Virus record (IMG/VR): IMGVR_UViG_3300021356_000182
Coordinates: 1 to 22,984 of that record
Length of the DNA stretch: 22,984 nt
Reading direction: 5' to 3' (one strand)
DNA from: a virus
A program made the translations under genes and the position numbers. Shown here piece by piece: positions 17,245-21,715 of the stretch. The stretch's first letter is position 1. Each line of letters begins with the position of its first letter. The notes beneath the pieces are model-generated. The model worked only from the letters and a program-made list of their open reading frames with translations. It made no database searches and was not told the DNA's origin.

Positions 17245-17498
17245 ACCTAATGTGCAATACCAAACATGGTGTTATTCAATGGAGATGGAAAGACTCAGGT
17301 CAACCATCTCCTGAATACAAATCATTGAATCATCAATGGTGGATTCCTAAGAAGACTGAGTTTGAATTAGTTACTAAAGTTGATCCTACGATTAAGCAAG
17401 AAATCAAAGACGAGATTTGGGAAGATATGCAATCTGATTTTGAGTATCAGAAAGGCATTTATAAATTACATAAATTAAATAAAAGGGAGAGTAAATAA
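17241..17498 (+). CDS. 85-aa protein of unknown function
   Basis: The protein is Trp-rich near its N-terminus (MNLMCNTKHGVIQWRWKDSG, then NHQWWIPKK), followed by a charged helix (KQEIKDEIWEDMQSDFEYQK). It starts inside the GGGAGAGTAAAAAATG cassette and ends NKRESK at the copy that precedes the methyltransferase gene. No family is recognised. Confidence 0.7.
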   Translation: MNLMCNTKHGVIQWRWKDSGQPSPEYKSLNHQWWIPKKTEFELVTKVDPTIKQEIKDEIWEDMQSDFEYQKGIYKLHKLNKRESK

Positions 17499-17500
17499 TG
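17478..17500 (+). repeat. 23-bp direct repeat, left copy, at methyltransferase start
   Basis: AATAAAAGGGAGAGTAAATA followed by ATG matches 18101-18123 at 22 of 23 positions by eye. It combines the C-terminal codons of the upstream gene, the Shine-Dalgarno, the stop and the next ATG. The two copies exactly flank the methyltransferase gene at 17498-18121. Confidence 0.8.
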
Positions 17501-18121
17501 AAAACATTAGAATTATTTGCAGGTAGTAGAAGTTTTAGCAAGATAGCAAAAAGTTTAGGTCATAAAGTATATACAACTGATAATCAAGACTTTAAATCTA
17601 TAGATCAAGTATGCGATATATTCGATTTTGACATCAATAAAATACCTTATAAACCTGACATAATTTGGGCAAGTCCACCTTGTACAAGTTTTTCTGTTGC
17701 ATCTATTGGTCATCATTGGAATCTTGACCATACACCAAAAACTGATAAAGCTGAATTAGGTGTGGCAATTGTAAAAAAGACAATTGAAATTATTAATTAT
17801 TTAAAACCTAAATATTGGTTTATTGAAAATCCAAGAGGTAAATTAAGAAAGTTAGATTTCATGCAAAATTTACCAAGAAAAACTGTTACATATTGTTCTT
17901 ATGGAGATATGCGAATGAAGCCTACAGATATATGGACTAATTTTGATTTTACGACTAGAGCTATGTGTAAAAATGGTAATAAGGACTGCCATCACGAACC
18001 AGCTCCTAGAGGATCACAAACTGGAACACAAGGATTAAAGGGAGATTATTTGCGAAGTCAAATACCACCAGCTTTATTTGAAGATATATTTGAACAAATT
18101 AATAAAAGGGGGAGTAAATAA
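17498..18121 (+). CDS. DNA C5-cytosine methyltransferase-like protein (1)
   Basis: This is a 207-aa protein. Motif I LFAGSRSF (6-13) is the SAM-binding loop. PPCTSFS (60-66) holds the catalytic-type Cys62, and ENPRG (110-114) corresponds to the ENV-type motif. A later segment with YCSYGD, KPTDIWTN, paired Cys/His (C157, C164, H165) and RSQIPPALFEDI is common to small phage cytosine methyltransferases. It is much shorter than typical enzymes (over 300 aa) and has no long target-recognition domain. Protection of phage DNA from host restriction is the likely role. No cognate endonuclease is adjacent. The gene is bounded by 23-bp direct repeats. Confidence 0.85.
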   Translation: MKTLELFAGSRSFSKIAKSLGHKVYTTDNQDFKSIDQVCDIFDFDINKIPYKPDIIWASPPCTSFSVASIGHHWNLDHTPKTDKAELGVAIVKKTIEIINYLKPKYWFIENPRGKLRKLDFMQNLPRKTVTYCSYGDMRMKPTDIWTNFDFTTRAMCKNGNKDCHHEPAPRGSQTGTQGLKGDYLRSQIPPALFEDIFEQINKRGSK

Positions 18122-18213: not shown

Positions 18214-18386
18214 ATGTAACATTTAATTTAATGGGTGGTGGTGAATTAAATATACCATCAAGAGCAATCAGTGGTTTCTATAAAGATGAATTTACCAGTG
18301 AGGTCATAGTTGAAGTTAATGGTGATGAATACAAGGTTAGAGATTCACTAGATGAAGTTAGATATATATTGGGGTTAGCAAGATGA
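18210..18386 (+). CDS. 58-aa protein of unknown function
   Basis: The ORF MNVTFNLMGGGELNIPSRAI... carries two short beta stretches (VTFNLMGGGELNIP and EVIVEVNGDEYKV) and a C-terminal helix (SLDEVRYILGLAR). It joins both neighbours through ATGA overlaps. It has no recognised family, but the fold-like alternation and tight coupling argue that it is real. Confidence 0.65.
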   Translation: MNVTFNLMGGGELNIPSRAISGFYKDEFTSEVIVEVNGDEYKVRDSLDEVRYILGLAR

Positions 18387-18955
18387 AAGTATTAGTTGCT
18401 TGTGAATATAGTGGAATAGTAAGAGATGCTTTCACTAAAAAAGGACATGATGCTATCAGTTGCGATATCTTACCAACTGAATCAGAAGGTAAGCATTATC
18501 AAGGTGATGTATTAGATATATTAGATGATGGTTGGGATTTAATGATTGCACATCCACCATGCACACACTTATCAGTTAGTGGTGCAAGGTGGTTTACTGA
18601 AGGAAGAAAACCAATGTATTTAAGAGATGAAGCTATAGAGTTTGTGAAAAAACTTATGGATGCACCTATTGATAAAATATGCATTGAAAATCCTGTAAGT
18701 GTAATTTCTTCATACATAAGAAAATCTGACCAAATGATAAACCCATTTCAGTTTGGTCACATGGAATATAAAAGAACTTGTTTGTGGTTGAAGAACTTAC
18801 CTAAATTAAAAGAAACAAATAATGTAAAAAAAGAAACAGATGCATTACCTGACAAAGAAAAGCATAGAATTTGGTGGATTGGTGGTGGTAAAGGAAAAGA
18901 AAGAAGTAAATTTTATACTGGCATAGCAGATGCTATGGCTGAACAATGGGGATAA
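18383..18955 (+). CDS. DNA C5-cytosine methyltransferase-like protein (2)
   Basis: This is a 190-aa protein. It opens MKVLVACEYSGIVRDAFTKK (SAM-loop-type motif I, variant of FxGxG). GHDAISCDILPTE and HYQGDVLDIL follow, then PPCTHLS (58-64, Cys60 catalytic type) and IENP (101-104). The C-terminus has NPFQFGHMEYKRTCLWLKNL and an IGGGKGKERSKFYTGIADAMA end typical of phage Dcm-like proteins. The two methyltransferase-like proteins in this operon are not close copies: motif I and the C-termini differ. A second specificity, or a non-standard base-modifying role, is possible. The start overlaps the 58-aa gene by ATGA. Confidence 0.8.
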   Translation: MKVLVACEYSGIVRDAFTKKGHDAISCDILPTESEGKHYQGDVLDILDDGWDLMIAHPPCTHLSVSGARWFTEGRKPMYLRDEAIEFVKKLMDAPIDKICIENPVSVISSYIRKSDQMINPFQFGHMEYKRTCLWLKNLPKLKETNNVKKETDALPDKEKHRIWWIGGGKGKERSKFYTGIADAMAEQWG

Positions 18956-18957
18956 AT

Positions 18958-19788
18958 ATGAAAATAGAATCACTTAAAAACTTTGAATCTAAACAAAAGG
19001 GTCAGGCTCTTATTTATAAAGACTTACCCAATGAGGACTATCATGCAAGTGTAGGGATCAGTAGTAGTTATGTTAGAAGGTTTGGTCAATCCCAACTTCA
19101 TGCAGTCAACTACACTTCTGAATCTACTCCAGCACTAAAGTTTGGAACAGCAGCTCATTCTTTATTAGTAGAAGGACAAGAAGCATTTGATAAAGAAGTC
19201 AGGGTGCTTACAGGTTCTCCTTATACTAAAGCATATAAAGAAGAGAAGGCTGAATACGAAGAGCAAGGATTCATAGTATTAAAAGAAGATGAAGCTGAGA
19301 TCATAAAAGGCATGAAAGAGAATATGATCTATGAGGGTAATGCTTACCTAAATGCAACTGGCAAGATACCTGAAGCAAGTATCTACTGGTATGAAGATGA
19401 CGTGCTATGTAAATGTAGACCTGATGTTATGTGTCCACCTTTAGATGAACCTAACTCAGATAACAGGATAGTCATTATTGATTACAAGACTACACAATCT
19501 TGCGAACCTCATGCTTTTAATTATTCAGTTAAGAAGTATGGCTATGATATGCAAGCTGCTTATTATAGAAGAGGAGTTGAGATGGCTGGATATGAAGTTA
19601 CTGATTTCTTATTTATAGCTCAAGAGAAAGTACAACCTTATGCATCTAAAGTTTTTAGAATCACGAAAGAACAAATGGATTATGGCTGGACTATGATGGA
19701 GCAATACCTGAATGATTATAAAGAATATCAAAAAGGTAAACCTTTAAGTATTTACAATAGTCCTAATGTTGTGGATTTGGTGTTGTAA
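18958..19788 (+). CDS. Exonuclease VIII / RecE-like PD-(D/E)XK nuclease
   Basis: This protein is about 276 aa. The ATG at 18958, two bases after the previous stop with GGGGAT upstream, is preferred to the in-frame ATG at 18946, which would overlap the methyltransferase. Features of the DUF3799/RecE-type nuclease core are present: FGTAAHSLL (H67), IPEASIYW (E139), KCRPD (D156), IIDYKTT (D175, K177) and YDMQAAYYRRG (Q199, Y202). By family knowledge it degrades DNA 5' to 3' to leave 3' single strands for annealing. No RecT/Beta-type annealase is recognised next to it. The gene for the protein with an SSB-like tip lies about 1.3 kb downstream. Confidence 0.85.
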   Translation: MKIESLKNFESKQKGQALIYKDLPNEDYHASVGISSSYVRRFGQSQLHAVNYTSESTPALKFGTAAHSLLVEGQEAFDKEVRVLTGSPYTKAYKEEKAEYEEQGFIVLKEDEAEIIKGMKENMIYEGNAYLNATGKIPEASIYWYEDDVLCKCRPDVMCPPLDEPNSDNRIVIIDYKTTQSCEPHAFNYSVKKYGYDMQAAYYRRGVEMAGYEVTDFLFIAQEKVQPYASKVFRITKEQMDYGWTMMEQYLNDYKEYQKGKPLSIYNSPNVVDLVL

Positions 19789-19931
19789 TGAACAAGCTAT
19801 ATATAAACAAGAGAGGTAAGTACATTTATTGTTATGAGTACACAAAACAAAATCGTTTAAATAAACAAGGTAAAAATGAAAAAGTGCTTGTAATTAATAA
19901 CGTAACTCAGATTTTAAAAAAGGGCGAATAG
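19788..19931 (+). CDS. 47-aa basic microprotein
   Basis: The ORF MNKLYINKRGKYIYCYEYTK... begins at a TAATG overlap with the nuclease gene. It is Lys/Tyr/Asn-rich, with a beta-hairpin-like opening (KLYINKRGKYIYCYEYTK) and a C-terminal helix (NVTQILKKGE). No Shine-Dalgarno is obvious, so translation would depend on coupling. It has no recognised family. Confidence 0.55.
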   Translation: MNKLYINKRGKYIYCYEYTKQNRLNKQGKNEKVLVINNVTQILKKGE

Positions 19932-19977
19932 ATATATGAGAGTATTTAGATTTATGGAGAGTTTATCTTACGCCCTT
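19920..19977 (+). other. Long-range inverted repeat across microprotein boundary
   Basis: AAGGGCG (19920-19926) and CGCCCTT (19971-19977) are perfect inverted copies separated by 44 bases, in DNA that is otherwise poor in G and C. The left arm sits at the end of the 47-aa gene, and the right arm lies inside the next candidate gene. No T-run follows, so it is not a standard terminator. Confidence 0.4.
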
Positions 19978-20040
19978 GAGATTAGTATAAGGGTTTTTGG
20001 AAGAGTAGGTAATAAAGTTCTAGCTTTATTATCAAATTAA
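19936..20040 (+). CDS. Possible 34-aa microprotein
   Basis: The ORF MRVFRFMESLSYALEISIRV... is short, amphipathic and basic. It fills the gap between the 47-aa gene and the RHH-like gene. There is no clear Shine-Dalgarno before the ATG, and part of it overlaps the inverted repeat at 19920-19977. It could be a real microprotein or a non-coding leader. The spacing is consistent with a gene, but the evidence is thin. Confidence 0.35.
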   Translation: MRVFRFMESLSYALEISIRVFGRVGNKVLALLSN

Positions 20041-20067
20041 ATATAATATAAAAAGTGGAGAGTCATT

Positions 20068-20229
20068 ATGGACGAAAAAACAAAAAAGGCACTTTGGATT
20101 CCTGAAGAATTACATAAGGATATCAAGGTGTTTGCAATCACAAATAATATGAATATTGAATCTGCTACTCAGCTATTGCTGAAGTTGGGCATGGTTTCTT
20201 ATAAGGAGAATAATCATGGGTCAGCATAA
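20068..20229 (+). CDS. 53-aa ribbon-helix-helix-like DNA-binding protein
   Basis: GGAGAG lies 8 bases before the ATG. The layout MDEKTKKALWIPEELHKDIK, then VFAITNNMNIESATQLLLKL, fits the ribbon-helix-helix (Arc/CopG) fold. It has a short strand with alternating residues (KALWI), helix A (PEELHKDIKVFAITNN), a turn, and helix B (NIESATQLLLKLGM). Such proteins act as dimeric repressors. It would be the only transcription-regulator candidate in the window, probably autoregulating or controlling this operon. The next gene starts inside its end (14-base overlap). Confidence 0.6.
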   Translation: MDEKTKKALWIPEELHKDIKVFAITNNMNIESATQLLLKLGMVSYKENNHGSA

Positions 20230-20380
20230 AGCAAAAGTAGAGCAACGTAGAAAAGAACTAGAAGCTGAAAAGCTAGATAAGCAGATCAAAACATATTATT
20301 TTCAAAAAGGTGCTGGTAAGCATTACAGGGAAGTAACATACATGAGTGGCAAAGTAGTTAGGACTGAGTTCAATGATTGA
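20216..20380 (+). CDS. 54-aa charged protein of unknown function
   Basis: AAGGAG precedes the ATG at a good distance. The N-terminal half is a highly charged helix (AKVEQRRKELEAEKLDKQI). A short beta segment follows (KTYYFQKGAGKHYREVTYM). The overlap with the RHH-like gene is 14 bases in another frame. No family is recognised. Confidence 0.65.
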   Translation: MGQHKAKVEQRRKELEAEKLDKQIKTYYFQKGAGKHYREVTYMSGKVVRTEFND

Positions 20381-20480
20381 GTGGATTCTATATTTTATTG
20401 CAGGAATATTTGGATTAGTATTTATAGGAATCATTTTAAGTGTATTAGCATTTATATATGTAATTAGAGAGTTAGATTAA
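20373..20480 (+). CDS. 35-aa single-TM microprotein
   Basis: MIEWILYFIAGIFGLVFIGI followed by a further hydrophobic stretch and IRELD forms one long membrane helix or hairpin. It begins inside the preceding gene (8-base overlap) and ends in a TAATG shared with the nuclease gene. It is strongly hydrophobic with only terminal charges. Function is unknown. Confidence 0.6.
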   Translation: MIEWILYFIAGIFGLVFIGIILSVLAFIYVIRELD

Positions 20481-20914
20481 TGGTAAATGGTAGAAATAAA
20501 GGTGCAGCTTTTGAGAGACTAATAGTCAATAAGATCAATGCAGTGTTAGAAGAAAAAGGTTTAGAAGAGAGAGTAAAAAGAAACTTAGATCAGTATCAAA
20601 CTAAAGGCATGGCTGATATTTATTTCAGGAACTTTGCGATTGAATGCAAAAGATACAAAAACAATGGCAATCAGAACATTTACAAGAACGAATGGTGGCA
20701 ACAAGCAGTAGATAGTGCTGGTGATAACTTGATTCCTATATTGATATACAAGTTTGATCGCAGAAATATTATGTGTGTTGTACCACTATTTTTAGTAAAC
20801 AACTTTGATAAAGCTAATTGGGATTGCACATATATGTGTCCTTTATCAGATATATGTGAAAGGTTAGATGAAATCATACAAAGAGCAGATGGATTTAAAC
20901 AGCTACCTGCTTGA
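20480..20914 (+). CDS. Holliday-junction-resolvase-like PD-(D/E)XK nuclease
   Basis: This is a 144-aa protein. RNKGAAFERLIVNKI (E12 on helix 1), RNLDQYQTKGMADIYF (D46) and FAIECKRYK (E55, K57) give the E...D...ExK layout of PD-(D/E)XK resolvases. The following NEWWQQAVDSAGDNLIPILI adds the usual helix and strand. Such enzymes resolve branched DNA after recombination or before packaging. It sits within the exonuclease/SSB-like/primase gene run, which supports a recombination-repair role. The start shares TAATG with the microprotein before it. Confidence 0.8.
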   Translation: MVNGRNKGAAFERLIVNKINAVLEEKGLEERVKRNLDQYQTKGMADIYFRNFAIECKRYKNNGNQNIYKNEWWQQAVDSAGDNLIPILIYKFDRRNIMCVVPLFLVNNFDKANWDCTYMCPLSDICERLDEIIQRADGFKQLPA

Positions 20915-21077
20915 GCAGGACTTTGAGGATTATTGTAGGTTTGCCTACGAAAAAATACAAAGTGCTTGCGATTTTCTCGGAATAATAAATGACGAGGATT
21001 ATGAGAGTTTTAAGGAAAGATGTTATTCAGAACTTGAAACTAATTACTTAAACAGTATTGAGAAAACAATACATTAA
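20868..21077 (+). CDS. 69-aa acidic helical protein of unknown function
   Basis: The ORF MKSYKEQMDLNSYLLEQDFE... overlaps the resolvase gene by 47 bases. AAGG lies 7 bases before the ATG at 20868, and a second in-frame ATG at 20889 is also possible. The sequence is helix-prone, with repeated Glu/Asp and aromatic residues (EDYCRFAYEKIQSACDFLG, NDEDYESFKERCYSELE). No family is recognised. The long overlap suggests translational coupling to the resolvase. Confidence 0.65.
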   Translation: MKSYKEQMDLNSYLLEQDFEDYCRFAYEKIQSACDFLGIINDEDYESFKERCYSELETNYLNSIEKTIH

Positions 21078-21091
21078 CCATAGGAGAGTAT

Positions 21092-21715
21092 ATGGATATA
21101 TTAGGTGGAATGAGTAGTTCCAGTGGTGAGAGTCAGCAAGTTTATCTTGCTTTTAAAACCATGCAGCAAAAGTTTTTTGCTAATGGTGAAACTCCAGTTG
21201 AATTTCAATATCTACAGCTTGATCCTGCTACCTTTAAAAGTGGCTGGGGTCGTTATACAAAAGCTGAAGGTTTTGAATATCACTGGGATGATAAATTTGG
21301 TGTAGTTAGTTCTAAACCAGCAGATGACTTTAAAAGAGCATTTAGTGCTTGGGTATTTCCTCAAGGAGCTCAACACGCATATCTTTGGCAAAGATTTACC
21401 TACGCTGAAACAAGTGCATTTAACAGCTTGTTAGCTACATTTTGGAATCAAATGGATACTTCATCTGATTCTCTTCCAGTAGTTAAGTTTGAAGGATCAA
21501 AACCAATTCAGGTTGGAATGGGTAATTCTTCAGAGCTAACTTTTAGCTTTGCTAAATTTGCACCAAGAAGTGATGGTTTTGTAATACCTCAATGGTATTT
21601 AGACCAAGAAGCACCAGTAGAGGACACATTTAAGAGTCCCAACGATGGTCTTAGCGATAAAGTAGCTGAGATGGTTAGTCAGAATGAATTGACAGATGAT
21701 GATATACCCTTCTAA
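21092..21715 (+). CDS. Protein with SSB-type C-terminal acidic tip; candidate ssDNA-binding or replication adaptor
   Basis: This is a 207-aa protein with GGAGAG before the ATG. The C-terminus (ELTDDDIPF) is essentially the SSB tip that recruits replication and repair enzymes; E. coli SSB ends DFDDDIPF. It follows a flexible acidic linker (about 171-200). The body (about 15-165) is aromatic-rich (YHWDDKFGVVSSKPADDFKR, AYLWQRFTYAETSAF). I do not recognise a standard OB-fold SSB, though a diverged one is possible. The Ser-rich N-terminus is likely flexible. Position between the resolvase and primase-helicase genes fits a ssDNA-binding protein or annealase-like partner. The tip is seen; function is inferred. 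TAATG couples it to the primase gene. Confidence 0.65.
   Translation: MDILGGMSSSSGESQQVYLAFKTMQQKFFANGETPVEFQYLQLDPATFKSGWGRYTKAEGFEYHWDDKFGVVSSKPADDFKRAFSAWVFPQGAQHAYLWQRFTYAETSAFNSLLATFWNQMDTSSDSLPVVKFEGSKPIQVGMGNSSELTFSFAKFAPRSDGFVIPQWYLDQEAPVEDTFKSPNDGLSDKVAEMVSQNELTDDDIPF

Follow-up and report, generated by a model that had tools for sequence, protein, structure and literature searches.

A cluster of five short ORFs flanked by a RecE/ExoVIII-type exonuclease and a PDDEXK endonuclease was analyzed in the window, a 22,984-base stretch of tailed-phage DNA from an IMG/VR virus record that carries genes for head, tail, lysis, and DNA metabolism (Table 1). Three of the ORFs, S3, S4, and S5, are real small genes that overlap head to tail at the front of the nuclease operon; the DNA of a fourth, S2, is a conserved two-helix stem-loop; and the stretch from the exonuclease to the stem-loop is a slot for cargo genes, many of them for DNA modification, with S1 as the cargo of the window. 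The original prediction had read the cluster as five or six microproteins. ORFs of 47, 34, 53, 54, and 35 aa do lie here on the plus strand, but they are not a set of five genes, S2 being no gene and S1 being cargo. Judging from sequence comparison, we lean towards an overall account in which S3-S5 are real genes, the hairpin would act in cis in the mRNA, the space before it serves as a cargo slot, and S3 would be a ribbon-helix-helix (RHH) repressor.

Table 1. Features between the exonuclease and the 207-aa protein gene, in window coordinates
Feature	Position	Strand	Evidence and remarks
RecE/ExoVIII-type exonuclease, upstream neighbour of S1	18958-19788	+	PHROG 412 exonuclease VIII, E 1.1e-61; Pfam DUF3799, 1e-24
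S1, 47 aa, cargo gene in swap slot	19788-19931	+	Few loci only; other genes occupy the slot elsewhere
Conserved stem-loop	19920-19977	+	Covarying pairs, conserved sequence, fold z-score -2.81
S2, 34-aa ORF, rejected as gene	19936-20040	+	pN/pS 0.72, flat codon positions; intact in 12/71 relatives
Inverted repeat AATAAAG-N6-CTTTATT in S3 leader, possible operator	20011-20030	+	58/100 distinct leaders
S3, 53 aa, RHH-like regulator	20068-20229	+	Conservation, pN/pS, profile matches, structure model and structural match
S4, 54 aa, alpha-beta-beta-beta protein	20216-20380	+	Conservation, intact frames, pN/pS, structure model
S5, 35 aa, single membrane helix	20373-20480	+	Conservation, intact frames, pN/pS; 19-residue hydropathy maximum 2.83
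PDDEXK endonuclease, operon gene after S5	20480-20914	+	Pfam PDDEXK_15, 2.3e-11; PHROG 244, 9.9e-16
69-aa conserved protein, no assigned function	20868-21077	+	pN/pS 0.22; no Pfam family over cut-off
207-aa protein, ssDNA-binding by position only	21092-21715	+	Roseophages: annotated ssDNA-binding protein in this operon

S1 starts within the exonuclease stop codon, the S3/S4, S4/S5, and S5/nuclease pairs overlap, and S2 overlaps none of S1, S3, S4, or S5. Two more DNA-methyltransferase-like genes lie just 5' of the exonuclease (17498-18121 and 18383-18955). The 207-aa protein matched no Pfam or PHROG family, and a DNA search of the INPHARED phages gave no match. A promoter scan returned 5 sites against 11.1 expected, none of them at S3.

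The stem-loop covers 58 nt and is overlapped by the S2 stretch. Its first helix, P1, pairs 19920-19926 with 19971-19977 (AAGGGC-R with Y-GCCCTT), and its second helix, P2, pairs 19931-19934 with 19964-19967 (GATA with TATC in the window; GGTA/TACC or GCTA/TAGC in other lineages). Between the helices stand GAGAGTA, a linker of variable length, and TGGAGAGTT, with the purine strands GAGAG and GGAGAG lying between P1 and P2. The S1 stop codon TAG (19929-19931) is inside the hairpin. The rows of the 56-row hairpin alignment were gathered by patterns, so that much of its invariance arises by construction; this does not apply to the letters of the variable pairs or to the co-occurrence test with S3, which used a looser pattern and loci fetched by proteins. 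Two GC-rich pattern matches (L267 and L269) were removed ahead of the hairpin counts.

In a model-free count, a 5' GNTA was matched by a 3' TANC in 55 of the 56 distinct hairpins (43 A-U, 8 C-G, and 4 G-C), and the lone exception, L265, keeps the variable P2 pair and breaks the neighbouring one. The P1 pair 8-57 is A-U in 52 hairpins and G-C in 4. The covariance-model alignment had 93.3% of its cells paired, compared with 37-53% when it was slid, and none of 500 shuffles reached the same covariation score. Only two pairs covary, through few events, and the number of pairs changed on both sides (2) was reached by 124 of the 500 shuffles. RNAalifold predicted P1 alone from the plain alignment, and the window hairpin folds 2.81 SD below its shuffles, 4 of 200 of which fold as well. 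The first model search yielded in addition 45 weak matches on the strand opposite to these hairpins and 2 weak ones elsewhere, all of which the E-value limit kept out of the final alignment. The hairpin is missing from the list of a scan for intrinsic terminators, and in the rows listed the base after GCCCTT is A, G, or C, with no T-run. No Rfam 15 family exceeded its gathering score; the best candidate over the element, RAGATH-34, scored 22.6 bits against 60.7. The candidate structured RNAs manA, wcaG, and PhotoRC-II, described for marine phage DNA (PMC2864571), resemble the hairpin as conserved RNA elements of such DNA, and among Rfam models none matches the window hairpin. Among the papers listed by literature searches of the open-licence part of PMC, none describes the hairpin or the cargo hotspot.

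A covariance-model search placed one strong hairpin site per record in 14 of 15 whole virus records. The record IMGVR_UViG_3300050343_000089 (65,678 bp) has two equal-scoring sites about 33.9 kb apart and is probably a tandem dimer of one genome. The S3 profile alone fetched 75 places, and the hairpin stood 5' of S3 in all 71 that had at least 300 nt of upstream DNA, the other four being shorter; it was likewise upstream of S3 in 74 of 74 loci of the exonuclease-fetched set. S3 was missing from 4 of 107 pattern-fetched places, all of them at most 133 nt from a contig end. No hairpin was found in 68,560 bases of more distantly related phages (four stretches). The hairpin ends approximately 90-100 nt 5' of S3 in 62 of the 71 loci and 730-1790 nt 5' of it in the remaining 9, and thus need not act directly on S3. 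On its other side, the stop codon of the preceding gene ends between -11 and +37 nt from the first hairpin base in 148 of 151 distinct loci and overlaps the hairpin in 79 of the 151. Whichever gene stands in front, the hairpin starts at or near that gene's stop codon; the gene is the RecE-type exonuclease (64 loci), a second exonuclease type that we take to be YqaJ-like (30 loci), or another gene (54 loci), cargo included.

We propose that the stem-loop would serve as a cis element in the mRNA, placed after the exonuclease/cargo message and ahead of the S3-nuclease operon, where it would most likely protect or set the end of the upstream message or couple the end of upstream translation to S3 expression. 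Terminating ribosomes or an RNA-binding protein would act on the hairpin, and S3 would be an RHH repressor of its own operon. The 3' strand of the hairpin contains GGAGAGU, a ribosome-binding heptamer used by the window phage, with no start codon behind this copy; elsewhere in the window, GGAGAGT stands 5' of the start codons behind 14451, 17229, 17486, 20057, and 21083. A GGAGAGT without a start codon, in a hairpin that starts at the end of upstream translation whatever the gene, fits an element of this kind. The main rival, to which we assign a clearly lower probability, is that the hairpin works as DNA, as a single-strand initiation or origin structure beside replication genes. Covariation would be equally expected from a DNA hairpin, and a DNA role would suit the single copy per genome, the adjoining nuclease and putative ssDNA-binding genes, and the persistence of the hairpin where cargo parts it from S3. 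However, an mRNA element accounts more naturally for the way in which the hairpin start tracks the preceding stop codon, though tight packing of genes could have the same effect.

Sixteen cargo genes were scanned for protein families, 14 of them located 5' of the hairpin and 2 located 3' of it. Eight of them encode DNA-modification enzymes, namely four C5 methyltransferases, one N6/N4 methylase, one Dam, and two Mom proteins; the others comprise one generic methyltransferase, one PAPS reductase, one cytidylyltransferase, and five genes without a family. S1 itself was found in the window and in a single locus of the first 80; the set of 151 has 4 distinct loci with S1, too few for a selection test. 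Since the slot of S1 holds DNA-modification genes in sister phages, S1 is a reasonable candidate for an anti-defence protein. In the gap between the hairpin and S3, ten distinct proteins are methyltransferase-like by sequence (Pfam was run on two of them). The gap between S5 and the nuclease contains an insert of 510-561 nt in 8 of 70 measurable loci (L003, L005, L006, L014, L049, L063, L065, and L075), whose product is presumably an MT-A70-like methyltransferase. The insert of L095 opens with MPINS, the residues that open the nuclease in sister loci. By eye, a similar AT-rich leader flanks the inserted C5 methyltransferase of L092/L189 on both sides. Behind its methyltransferase insert, L071 repeats the final 31 exonuclease residues, a trace of recombination.

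Distant exonucleases are combined with near-identical nucleases in 42 of 1128 pairs of loci, and the correlation of distances is 0.67 for exonuclease and S3 and 0.57 for S3 and S4. Gene exchange thus occurs throughout the region and is not confined to the hairpin. The 42 pairs are in line with a hairpin that is chiefly a recombination site for the exchange of cargo genes, as is the free variation of the upstream sequence (RecE-type exonuclease, another exonuclease, or cargo) up to the first bases of the hairpin. Nevertheless, we regard this explanation as improbable, since a search of 16 virus records turned up neither a tyrosine nor a serine recombinase, the exonuclease-S3 correlation is no lower than that of S3 and S4, and cargo is inserted 3' of the hairpin too. 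Quite improbable, on the sequences compared here, is also that marine phages without an integrase would use the hairpin as the hub of a device for exchanging cargo, with DNA-modification genes joined precisely to its 5' edge, taking their stop codons from the hairpin, and expressed through it; if true, one RNA structure would serve any inserted anti-restriction gene.

Two known arrangements bear comparison with the slot and its hairpin. In integron cassettes with attC sites, a variable ORF is followed by a hairpin that often contains the stop codon, and the core sites are GTTRRRY and RYYYAAC. The variable ORF, the hairpin, and the stop codon often placed within it are shared with the window. 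In contrast to integrons, there is one hairpin per genome here, no tyrosine integrase was found (PF00589 in 0 of 16 virus records, some possibly incomplete), and the hairpin alignment has AAGGGC and GCCCTT at its ends without the GTTRRRY/RYYYAAC sites. Phage morons, which have their own terminators, likewise form an accessory gene slot whose 3' end bears a stem-loop, whereas here no U-run follows the stem and the hairpin stays in place without cargo.

The coding status of the short ORFs was assessed in 80 viral contigs retrieved by an exonuclease search (72-99% identical). Together with the window, they gave S3 in 76 cases, S4 in 73, S5 in 72, and S1 in 2, and at least some of the loci lacking S3-S5 lie on contigs that break off close to the exonuclease. 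S5 is 35 aa long with an ATG start in 72 of 72 cases, and S4 is 54 aa long in 72 of 73, the remaining one running off its contig. S3 measures 53 or 54 aa in 73 of its 76 cases; when translation is taken from its own start, the frame stays open in 75 of the 76 matches, and the last again runs off the contig. In the aligned-stop test, S4 and S5 were both intact in 71 of 71 relatives, while two antisense ORFs of the same region, used as a control, were intact in 3 and 15 of the 71. This strict test passed S3 in only 39 of 71 relatives because of its length of either 53 or 54 aa, and S2 in 12 of 71. The pN/pS ratios over distinct sequences were 0.20 for S3, 0.24 for S4, 0.35 for S5, and 0.72 for S2, compared with 0.16-0.22 for the larger neighbours (exonuclease, 0.16; nuclease, 0.19; 69-aa protein, 0.22). 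Conservation of the frames, which the original prediction had set as its test, was thus obtained for S3-S5 but not for S2. S3 occurs in every lineage seen and S4 and S5 in most, and the three look like core rather than accessory genes.

The RHH-like protein foreseen in the cluster corresponds to S3, a real and conserved gene that is probably an RHH regulator. The S3 of the window matched no Pfam family over its cut-off; among 17 S3 members, below-cut-off matches were obtained to Omega_Repress (6 of 17, best 4.2e-4) and 56B_RHH (3 of 17, best 1e-3), and 7 of 17 matched the Arc-like repressor PHROG 582 (best 0.0032). A search of PDB sequences with the S3 profile gave only weak or repeat-driven matches, with 56B at 0.038, and a search of phage records gave no match to S3. 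The S3 structure model (pLDDT 70.8, a weak value) has helices at residues 13-25 and 30-40, the strand being unassigned in the monomer model. All Foldseek E-values were 0.5 or worse, with several RHH proteins among the top rows, and the best match of a second structural aligner was the Arc repressor (Z 4.2, 39 residues, rmsd 2.2). S3 resembles phage Arc-type RHH repressors in length, predicted helices, best structural match, and its place at the head of an operon, but differs in that no S3 family match passes a curated cut-off, and its DNA binding is putative. The AATAAAG-N6-CTTTATT repeat is a possible candidate for an operator of S3.

A similar operon is found in the Roseobacter phages CRP-811, CRP-821, and CRP-406, which have a 53-aa small protein, a PDDEXK nuclease, an exonuclease, an ssDNA-binding protein, and a helicase; in CRP-821, a cytosine methyltransferase lies between the small protein and the nuclease. 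The capsid of CRP-811 is 61.6% identical to that of the window. Unlike in the window, the exonuclease of these roseophages follows the nuclease, and no hairpin was found in them. Their 53-aa genes, annotated as hypothetical, head the nuclease operon (L300:8791-8952, L301:8983-9144, and L302:4666-4827). The CRP-811 protein narrowly matched the Pfam NikA-like family, which is of the RHH type, with 27.6 bits (cut-off 27), and the CRP-406 protein scored 18.7, below the cut-off. None of the roseophage proteins convincingly matched the S3 profile, and hence we claim for them and S3 an equal position and a likely equal fold, but not a demonstrated homology.

The model of S4 (pLDDT 83) consists of a helix at residues 2-22 followed by three strands, with no convincing structural relative (best Z of the second aligner 3.2, to Pur-alpha). 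The anti-CBASS protein Acb4 of SPO1 was rejected as an identity for S4, having a Foldseek E-value of about 0.5 and no place among the matches listed by the second aligner. The tiny membrane protein expected in the cluster proved to be S5, a real gene whose product is one hydrophobic membrane helix. Of its 58 distinct sequences, 13 depart from the start motif of the window, most being quite different. A membrane ORF occupies the place of S5 in 79 of 134 distinct S3 loci. Proteins of the RHH type frequently serve as antitoxins, and with S5 being a tiny membrane peptide, S3 might be paired with S4 or S5 as a toxin-antitoxin system. We consider such a pair very unlikely, given that no membrane ORF is present at the S5 place in the other 55 loci and that in CRP-811 and CRP-406 the 53-aa RHH-like gene stands directly 5' of the nuclease, with neither S4 nor S5.

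S2 was ruled out as a protein by its pN/pS ratio, flat codon positions, and broken frame. Its three codon positions vary about alike (0.096, 0.098, and 0.128), one group of relatives has single-base indels, the start codon is missing in 17 of 74 matches, and the ATG is absent from distant lineages such as L190 and L203. That all five ORFs, S2 included, are microproteins is hardly credible against these data, although an ATG-started frame of 32-48 aa is open at the S2 place in 58 of the 74 close matches, which conservation of the hairpin DNA can explain.

A scan of the species-genome collection with the hairpin pattern identified two genomes. One match lies on a contig of a Flavobacteriaceae MAG, the other on contig 4 of "uncultured SAR86 cluster bacterium isolate AG-390-L11", a single-cell genome to judge from its isolate name. 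The first 50.2 kb of the SAR86 contig are bacterial chromosome and the last 22.5 kb (50230-72734) are a sister phage, whose head protein (capsid) is 89% identical to that of the window; homology to the phage relatives starts at approximately 50,230-50,248. With no recombinase of the tyrosine or serine type found in the 16 virus records, the joint may reflect chimeric amplification of DNA from an infected cell and not a prophage. Among the remaining 202 genomes of the order to which this isolate belongs, none gave a clear head-protein match (one weak local match). With a lone SAR86 genome, and with the closest cultured capsid coming from a Roseobacter phage, SAR86 is a good but single lead to the host. 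The SAR86-filed genome ties the sister phage to a host group that, as stated in a 2017 paper (PMC5332604), had yielded no virus isolate.

What began as a call of microproteins has led to a conserved structured element absent from Rfam 15. Three short gene families, S3, S4, and S5, are added for a large and widespread group of marine phages, and the slot 5' of the hairpin is a place to seek new anti-restriction genes, S1 among them.
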